DNA of 64,000 bases, from contig NC_036456.1 in the NCBI RefSeq assembly GCF_002775205.1, positions 23,060,968-23,124,967 on the forward strand. Direction: 5' to 3'. A program made the translations under genes and the position numbers. How positions within the stretch are numbered: position 1 is the first letter of the stretch; each line of letters starts with the position of its first letter. This DNA comes from Xiphophorus maculatus (lineage: Eukaryota; Chordata; Actinopteri; Cyprinodontiformes; Poeciliidae). This document shows, one piece after another, positions 54,001-57,000 of the stretch. The notes beneath the pieces were generated by a model. The model was not told where the DNA came from. It did no database searches and was given only the letters and a program-made list of their open reading frames with translations.

Positions 54001-57000
54001 TGTTTATCTTTCCAGGAAAATATCATCTTACTGGTTCTGAAGAGCCAATAAAGGCACAAGTGGGATCCAACGTTGTTCTACCATGTCTTGTGAAGCCTGC
54101 AGTTAATGCGAGCAACGCTACAGTCGAATGGATGGTCGACTCCAGTAAAACTGTTCACTTGTTCCGTAATGAAGCTGATGAACGAGAATCTCAAGACGAC
54201 AGATACAAAGATCGAACTTATCTCAACCATGCAATGCTTGAACATGGTAACGTTTCCCTCAAGTTGTCCAACGTAACTAAGAACGATGAAGGGATTTACA
54301 GCTGCTTGGTTCTCCGTCTGCCTGGTCATAATAAGCCAGAAGACAAAAATGTTACTCTGGTTGTTGGTGAGTTTTATTGAATCAGAATCATTTAAGATAA
54401 AATAGATAAAAATGTGGATATCTTTAACACTTAATGTGATTCCTCAACAGTTGATGGAAAAGAAAATGAAAACCCTGAAGGACATTCTGGAGGTAAATAT
54501 CTTAACAACTGATAATCAGATGTTACTGGCACAGCGACTGTGACTCAGTGGATACAGTTGTTGTCTTCCTGTTTCCCCTGGTCACATGTTGATGTGCCCT
54601 TGGGCAAGGCAGATAACTCCTAAATACCTTTTGATCTGCATATAGGTGTATGAATGTGTTAAATGTGCGGCAAACTAGCGGTATTGTAGAGGGCCGCACT
54701 GGGTTAACGCGGTGAATTTCAGACTGTCCGGCGCGTGCTTCAATACACTCCAAGTCGCTTCAGGTTGTTGTTGCAATCATCAATTTATTCCACTTGACTG
54801 TCATACTTCAGATTTTACATGGACTGACACATACTGACCAGGCTAAACCATACAATGTTGCTAACAATAAGCGACATTACAACACGGTCAACAGAAATTA
54901 TGACCACCACCGGCGCACCCGCTTCCTCATACATACAATCAGCGCGCCAGTATGGCTCCCATTCATACCTTAGTGACAGTCACGCCCACCTCGACACACC
55001 CACCACCCAAGTGTCAAAGCCGTGTGCTCCTGCCACATCAGTAACTGCTCATTTCAACCATAAGGCTCTTACAATATGTGGGTGTGTGTGGGTGTGTGTG
55101 CGTGTGTGTGCGTGTGTGTGTGTGTGTGTGTGTGTGTGTGTGGTGCAGTAAATGTTGACCCCTGAATGATGAGGTGACTGTTGGTTCACAACTTTGATCT
55201 CATTAATAAAACAAAAATATGCAAAATTGAATTCAAAATATCCAAAAGTGGAATTTTAAAAACCTGTTTTTCTTTTTTGCCACAGTACCTGCTGGAGTTA
55301 TTGTTGGTGTTGTTGTTGTTAGTGTTGGTGTTGTTGTGGGAGCACTCATTATCATCCTCATCTGTGTTCTATGTTGGTGGAAACGTAAACAAAGTAAGTC
55401 AGTCATTGTCTTTGTAAGTCTTGCAGGATTTTGGTGAATTAATGATTCTCTCCATAAATGCATATTTCCAATTGATAGAAAATATAGTTTTTAATAGTTT
55501 GCAAAAACTGATCTGAAGCTGAAGAGAAGTAAAACTCAGAAACATGGAGCTGTCTAGATAAACATGTGTAAGAAAAGTTATGCAGTTTTCACATATTTAT
55601 CAATATCTGTTGGTGTTTGTCTGAAAAGAAAAGAAAAACAAGAAACCAAATTATTATGAGTAACTTTTTTCTCTTTTAGGTCTTTGTTGTTTATTGTAGC
55701 CTTTCTGCCTGCCCAGGTTGATGAAACATTTTTACCAGACAAAAACTGTTAAGGAGAATTAAATATTGTCACTCATTTATATTGTTAAGCTAAATATTCA
55801 CTGTTGTTTACTTTCTGTTGTGTACAGTTTTTCCATGCTGGAACAACAACTCTCAAAATGAACAAGTGAGAAATGATGGAGGTATGGAAATGGAACAATT
55901 ATGTAATAATTCCATCCATCCATTTTCTGTTCACTCTTTGTCCCTAATGGGGTCGGGAGGGTTGCTGGTGCCTCTCCAGCTACGTTCCGGGCGAGAGGCG
56001 GGGTCACCCTGGACAGGTCGCCAGTCTGTCGCAGGGCAACACAGAGACATACAGGACAAACAACCAATCACTCACACACTAACACCTAGGGAGAATTTAG
56101 AGAGAGACCAATTAACCTGACAGTCATGTTTTTGGACTGTGGGAGGAAGCCGGAGAACCCGGAGAGAACCCACGCATGCACAGGGAGAACATGCAAACTC
56201 CATGCAGAAAGACCCCGGCCGGGAATCCAACCCAGGACCTTCTTGCTGCTACCAACTGCGCCACTGTGCAGCCCCAATAATGTAATAATTAACTTATGTT
56301 AATGATTTACTTTTTTATTTTCCTGCTCATTGATAAACTAAGCAGGACTGCAGTCACTGAACATCACAGCTGAGCATCAAACCAGGAAACTGAACTTCCT
56401 TGTTGGTGACTGAATCTGACTGACTAGATAATTTGATGTAGCAGCAATGAACTGGTGACCTGACTGGTTTACTCCTGGCTCACCAGCTTTCCCACTGACC
56501 TGAACAGTGATATGCAGGTTTAGACCAGAGGTGACCAACCTGTGGCCCCGGATCTGGACAACACTAAAGAAAAACAGCCAAGAATCAAGAAAACAAAATC
56601 CAACAACATTCATTCATAAAATGCTATAAATAAAACTATTAAAAATTGCAAACACATAACTCAGATTTTCTCTTCTTTGTTGTGTTTTCTTCAACAGAGA
56701 AGCTTAAAGCCAATTAAAACATGTTTAAGATTATAATTACATCAGACCAATTAAAAAAGTAAACTAGAGCTTAATGAAAGACGTCTCTTCTACCTTAATG
56801 AAAGTTATATTTAAAAGGTTCTTTTAATCTGACAAGCCTCATCAGAATATACATTACATATTCAATTTAATATGACTATGTGTACATTTTTAGTTTAATA
56901 TGCTTTGGTTTCTGGATTGTCTTATTTTTGTCAACAAGAATCTGGAAATAAATAAAAGACAAATAATTTCAGAAACAGTCAAAACTTCACTGCTTTACTT

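Follow-up and report, generated by a model that had tools for sequence, protein, structure and literature searches.

Divergent exons between near-identical introns in a tandem array of MOG/butyrophilin-like genes of Xiphophorus maculatus

The paralogous chicken BG genes exchange the segments that encode the CDR1 and CDR2 loops, as described in the part of PMC5043582 that we use here. In ruminant CEACAM32, gene conversion is found in the introns and the leader exon and not in the Ig-domain exons, according to the portion of PMC7042247 that concerns us; the gene has an average dN/dS of 0.65 across ruminants and has co-opted a unique transmembrane exon, a pattern interpreted there as selection that opposes homogenisation of the protein. 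A more general model of such cases, set out in a section of PMC3924837, takes a peak of divergence over an exon between homogenised introns as a mark of selection under gene conversion, for example in exon 5 of the human red and green opsin genes.

Here, we compare these systems with a locus of Xiphophorus maculatus. Genes B and C lie in the 64,000-nucleotide stretch of contig C14 that was analysed as a whole (the window), and are two of the four tandem copies of a gene for a single-V-domain, MOG/butyrophilin-like membrane protein. We denote the copies U1, U2 (gene B), U3 (gene C) and U4; U1 (C14:23.04 Mb) and U4 (23.155 Mb) lie outside the window, and all four have the same orientation. Each unit has leader, V, linker, transmembrane (TM) and cytoplasmic exons with open frames, and the encoded type I membrane protein is small and carries a single MOG/butyrophilin-like V domain. 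The genome searched comprises 704 Mb in 101 contigs. The features in the window are:

13485..13569, plus strand: leader exon of gene B, with a second in-frame ATG at 13512
16087..16437, plus strand: V-domain exon of gene B, 116 codons, frame from the third base (16089)
16438..16520, plus strand: intron 2 of gene B
16521..16562, plus strand: linker exon of gene B
17721..17819, plus strand: transmembrane exon of gene B
18250..18303, plus strand: cytoplasmic exon 1 of gene B
45100..45184, plus strand: leader exon of gene C, 97.5% identical to the leader of gene B, with the upstream ATG at 45100 and a second in-frame ATG at 45127
46599..53252, plus strand: retrotransposon-like insertion in intron 1 of gene C, where the aligned blocks of the sister units are continuous
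54016..54366, plus strand: V-domain exon of gene C, 116 codons, frame from the third base (54018)
54367..54450, plus strand: intron 2 of gene C, near-identical to that of gene B
54451..54492, plus strand: linker exon of gene C, 42 bases
55286..55393, plus strand: transmembrane exon of gene C, strongly divergent from its array sisters
55394..55827, plus strand: intron 4 of gene C, with nine genome copies including its own, the others 97-99% identical
55828..55881, plus strand: cytoplasmic exon 1 of gene C
57157..57233, plus strand: cytoplasmic exon 2 of gene C, coding part up to the stop codon

The V exons are open when read from their third base; a frame from the first base gives stops and was rejected. 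None of the four contains a stop codon, and both exons in the window retain the Cys, Trp and Asp-Gly-Tyr-Cys hallmark positions. The genome DNA search found these four V exons and no fifth (4/4 candidates scored). At the protein level, the next matches beyond the array are at most 47% identical, among the best 150 of 263 candidates, which were scored.

The leader of gene C lies as far upstream as about 45.1 kb because an insertion of 6.65 kb sits in intron 1. This insertion, which carries ORFs at 47496-48737 (413 aa) and 49134-52685 (1183 aa), is missing from all three sister units and has at its two ends a direct repeat of 17 bases (46582-46598 and 53253-53269), which is single in gene B; from its sequence, we read it as a probable non-LTR element. 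The tail exons encode 45 residues in U1, 18 in U2 and 43 in U3. The last tail exon of U4 (L029, from C14:23158413) is without the stop codon that U1 and U3 have and reads past it, so that its tail would be longer. With the second cytoplasmic exon of gene C as the query, none was found near gene B, and the frame of gene B past cytoplasmic exon 1 (window 18250-18330) enters the intron and stops within a few codons.

Two other observations concern the surroundings of these genes. Further Ig exons of V type lie on the minus strand between genes B and C (window 23149-23445, 29707-30042, 30437-30706 and 31358-31639). Furthermore, an element of about 480 bases is repeated in the window at about 98% identity (2907-3385, 12447-12928 and 43760-44240), and outside the window there are at least one further copy (98.5%) and a related element (92%).

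The V domain matches the Pfam V-set family (6e-14), and the AF2 model of the gene C domain has a pLDDT of 94.5. The top five fold matches of this model in the PDB are MOG chains (TM-score 0.89-0.92 by query length, 34-36% identity), followed by butyrophilins; by sequence, the first match among solved structures is CD276 (1e-18) and the next MOG (1e-15). The array thus shares the V-set fold with mammalian MOG, butyrophilins and CD276/B7, but differs from them in its single V domain and short tail. Butyrophilins proper are built as IgV-IgC-TM-B30.2, whereas the exon models of the four units, on which this comparison is based, have no IgC or B30.2 exons. Judged by the ITIM motif, the tails also differ from the ITIM/ITAM tails of teleost NITR/NILT-type signalling receptors: the tail exons of U1-U3 contain no tyrosine, and the part of the U4 tail that was read contains one, in no ITIM context.

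Like the chicken BG genes, as far as the relevant part of PMC5043582 describes them, the units are tandem genes in the same orientation that encode one V domain, a TM segment and a tail, and the MOG structure 1PY9, the modelling template there, is the best fold match here. On the other hand, chicken BG has a Cys in the CDR1 loop for dimerisation and a long cytoplasmic tail of heptad repeats, whereas residues 24-36 of the array proteins are free of Cys in all four copies and the tails of U1-U3 are short; for these reasons, the array is not a BG gene proper. A further difference from the BG genes is that the CDR3-like segment and the TM exon of the array vary as well.

We compared exon and intron divergence in all pairs of array units. 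The V exons differ by 8.6-11.0% and the part of intron 1 next to them by 0.2-3.1%, with the exon above the intron in all six pairs; intron 2 differs by 1.2-4.9% and intron 3, at its start, by 0-1.9%. The TM exon (10.2-23.3%) and cytoplasmic exon 1 (7.3-14.5%) both exceed intron 4 (1.2-3.3%), again in six of six pairs each, while for the linker exon (37-42 compared bases) the excess over introns is seen in five pairs, the linkers of U3 and U4 being identical. For example, U1 and U4, which are 113 kb apart, differ at one of 479 aligned bases plus indels in intron 1 beside the V exon and at 31 of 339 bases in the V exon itself. Along the units, the peaks of divergence end close to the exon borders. 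Not every non-coding stretch follows the rule: divergence is 8.6-14.0% in the 93 bases ahead of the leader segment and 5.4-7.4% over the final 203 bases of intron 3. CpG hypermutability was rejected as a cause, since non-CpG sites alone keep the exon excess (segregating rate 14.7% in the V exon, 4.5% in introns).

As a control, we took four of the copies of a sister V family that is clustered at 24.32-24.47 Mb. Here, the exons differ by 1.1-3.3% and the flanks by 1.8-5.5%, and exon divergence is below that of the flank in all six pairs. Six other V-exon pairs gave a mixed picture: the exon is above the flank in four and at least twofold above it in one, while by the same measure all six array pairs are at least twofold above. 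The flanks of these control pairs can contain other Ig exons, and the pairs are not independent, because the loci L009, L012 and L016 are related to one another and two of them, L009 and L016, overlap. In the V-exon pair L010/L019 (22.76 and 22.79 Mb) we see an exon divergence of 22.7% and a flank divergence of 7.2% (387 aligned bases).

The original prediction compared genes B and C, and its description of the two V exons proved accurate. Instead of about 36 base differences there are exactly 36 in 351 bases, and of the 27 codons that differ, 23 are replaced and four silent (codons 27, 37, 49 and 50), as had been counted by hand. Likewise, the 83-bp intron 2 is near-identical as claimed (one mismatch in 83 plus a 1-base indel), and so are stretches of intron 1, of which three pieces differ by 1.3-3.1%. 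The reported gain and loss of glycosylation sequons is seen as well, with three in gene B (residues 41, 78 and 85) and five in gene C (30, 33, 78, 85 and 111). The replacements are indeed clustered in the loops: they fall on 13 of 35 CDR-like and 10 of 81 other positions (p = 0.004), and over the four copies, with indels counted, 22 of 35 CDR-like positions are variable vs 18 of 81 others (p = 4e-5), where the CDR-like limits were set from the strands of the model after the alignment had been seen. In framework codons, pN is 0.058 and pS 0.051. The diversification that had been proposed stands in so far as a diversified exon lies among homogeneous introns and the copies are mosaic, but the pair itself does not carry it (B-C dN/dS 1.29, Fisher p = 0.42). 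The excess in the TM, cytoplasmic 1 and linker exons, the array copies U1 and U4, and the insertion in intron 1 of gene C go beyond what that prediction had noted.

The mosaic structure is visible in the sites that split the four V exons two against two. All three groupings are present (8, 4 and 5 sites), and the sites fall in blocks (7 runs in 17 sites, runs test p = 0.009), which resembles the exchange of loop segments between paralogues reported in the BG part of PMC5043582. From 5' to 3', the first 2 sites join U1 to U3, 3 sites in the CDR1-like loop and C strand join it to U2, and 5 sites beginning at the CDR2-like loop join it to U3 again; then there are two single sites, a block that joins U1 and U4 at the CDR3-like loop with a 6-base indel (4 sites), and a last U1-U3 site. 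In intron 1, U1 and U4 have a run of 15 successive shared polymorphic sites (permutation p = 0.0006, the smallest of the six pairs); two other pairs gave uncorrected p values of 0.016 and 0.019.

The similarity of the introns extends beyond the array. Intron 4 is found in the four array units, in four further places on C14 (24.34-24.66 Mb, both strands) and once on contig C95, so that its copies span up to 1.6 Mb of C14, whereas the genome search found the 3' end of intron 1 in the four array copies only. Exchange therefore seems to act in at least two modules. The clearest single comparison is that between gene C and U9 (24.34 Mb): intron 4 differs at two of 434 bases, whereas the V exons have 39 of 109 residues in common and a dS of 0.64, and a recent duplication of whole units thus cannot be the cause. 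In U5-U8, we saw the linker side of intron 2 but no V exon beside it, and cytoplasmic exon 1 of U8 (L045) is one base short and leads into another reading frame; for both reasons, some of these units may be broken. U7 (L044, on C95) and U6 (L046, C14:24.63 Mb) are 99.9% identical over 6.9 kb, U7 being either an unplaced haplotype copy or a very recent duplicate.

Leaving out U7, which is nearly a copy of U6, and counting U2 and U9 without cytoplasmic exon 2, we could compare eight units. The TM exon is above intron 4 in 28 of the 28 pairs and cytoplasmic exon 1 in 27. Within the TM exon of six units (U1, U2, U4, U5, U6 and U9), replacements are in excess (pN 0.115, pS 0.025, bootstrap 0.0005, 33 ungapped codons of 50 columns); U3, the TM exon of which looks replaced, U8, the next exon of which is out of frame, and the near-copy U7 were left out. 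Adding U3 raises pS to 0.099 and pN to 0.176. For cytoplasmic exon 1 alone, pN > pS is not significant (0.13).

The TM exon of gene C (window 55286-55393) has a pS of 0.35-0.45 against its three sisters and lies between similar introns, and to judge by this contrast it looks replaced. A donor was not found in the genome search: the best of the other matches, at C14:24660940 (74%), was rejected, being the TM exon of another unit, and there is a further match on C20 with 90% identity over 40 bases.

We think it fairly probable that gene conversion homogenises the introns of the array while selection keeps, and reshuffles, the differences between the exons. Repeated gene conversion (or unequal exchange) would keep the non-coding parts alike, and conversions that would make the proteins alike would be purged by selection, whereas replacement mutations and short exchanges by which loop segments are recombined would be retained. 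The products may then be related surface ligands or receptors that are kept distinct in the face formed by the loops and, in part, in their membrane and tail segments; their kinship to butyrophilins and BG makes a putative immune role likely. Some details fit this account less well. Conversion tracts should blur the edges of the peaks by their length, yet the peaks end near exon borders; the bases before the leader are divergent although non-coding, and the U3 and U4 linkers are identical although coding.

Alternatively, positive selection may have acted on its own after a recent duplication, so that the introns would be neutral at 2-3% divergence and only the replacements sped up. We regard this as unlikely, although it would explain the sharp edges at the exon borders and is in line with the TM exon, where silent divergence is near that of intron 4 and pN about five times higher. 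In the V exon, mean pN is 0.104 and mean pS 0.073; pN > pS is not significant (bootstrap 0.12, averaged over pairs), and pairwise dN/dS ranges from 0.97 to 3.59, with p < 0.05, uncorrected, in one of the six pairs (V1-V3). The mean intron divergence is 0.018 for near introns and 0.028 for all. V-exon pS lies above both (bootstrap P 0/2000 and 0.008, respectively), as does pN, and since silent sites are thus raised too, the pattern is not due to recent replacement selection only. The size of the silent excess is uncertain, because it is weaker on single-hit silent changes alone (6/75 sites; p = 0.055 against near introns and 0.29 against all), and in the latter comparison the V exon is not clearly above the introns, as selection on replacements alone would have it. 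The mosaic V exon and the contrast between gene C and U9 both speak against this explanation. Equality of intron and silent exon divergence, which the original prediction had named as evidence against diversification, is thus not found for the V exon; the TM exon comes close to it (six-unit pS of 0.025 against an intron 4 mean of 0.020 over eight units), with replacements still in excess.

Codon models, for which we used our own implementation, were fitted to the four copies. The M0 omega is 1.88-2.12 (p 0.025-0.048), and M2a is favoured over M1a, 2dl being 26-32 whether a star tree or one of three topologies is used; in 25 simulated neutral mosaics, 2dl stayed below 26 throughout, with a maximum of 10.2. 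The result is kept without 16 codons near gaps. When the 13 codons with multi-base differences are removed, the fit weakens (p = 0.047, 0.047, 0.32 and 0.25), so the signal lies in codons changed by several bases. Patches of exchange and repeated selection would both give such codons. On average, the expectation of a dN/dS above 1 with more sequences holds in this four-copy model, but the M2a signal comes mostly from multi-base codons.

The original prediction had also suggested the import of an exon from another paralogue. A whole-exon origin of the gene C V exon from a more distant paralogue seems very unlikely to us. The TM exon of gene C does look replaced, which speaks in its favour. However, with only four V exons matching by DNA in the genome search, no whole-exon donor was found and any donor must have been lost or have escaped assembly, and gene C is about as distant from gene B as the members of the other pairs are from each other. 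Nor did we find a third paralogue identical to one of the two exons, which had been put forward as a sign of conversion alone.

It is slightly less probable still that the introns are constrained by a regulatory or structural role and evolve slowly, while the exon divergence is ordinary. The 97-99% identity of intron 4 in nine copies would agree with this. On the other hand, the similar stretches span large parts of introns 1, 3, 4 and 5 and include indels and insertions, and the difference between four copies of the 3' end of intron 1 and nine of intron 4 looks like exchange modules rather than function. Finally, a raised mutation rate of the exons or the relaxed evolution of pseudogenes, for which the similar framework pN and pS could be quoted, is the least credible, given that CpG fails to explain the divergence, that the V exons are free of stops in four copies with their hallmark residues intact in both window exons, and that relaxed evolution does not make exons faster than introns.

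Among the listed hits from the open-access literature on such fish families and on exon/intron contrasts, we found no paper on this array, which is a further case of a phenomenon that is already in print as theory and examples. It is not a simple repetition of them, though. As far as the excerpt of PMC7042247 goes, CEACAM32 is a single escaping gene of the CEA family, whereas here four MOG/butyrophilin-like copies are about equally different; and while the opsin peak in the cited section of PMC3924837 follows two functional sites in one exon, the peaks of the array span several exons and many sites. Least expected is the excess of replacements in the TM exon, the silent divergence of which is near the intron value.

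The array offers a clean natural setting in which conversion and selection oppose each other. Since homogenised and protected parts lie side by side in the same genes, tract length and the strength of selection could be measured. Possibly, though this is a tentative idea that we rather doubt, the array is a fish counterpart of chicken BG: a MOG-like single-V family in which conversion over more than 1 Mb homogenises the introns, V loops are recombined as cassettes, and TM and tail segments diversify, giving germline-encoded, individual-specific surface ligands (which might, for example, be seen by gamma-delta T cells or serve to recognise kin or pathogens). If the alleles prove to vary, a BG-like polymorphic family would exist in fish, and this, if true, would bear on what the polymorphic relatives of butyrophilins recognise.
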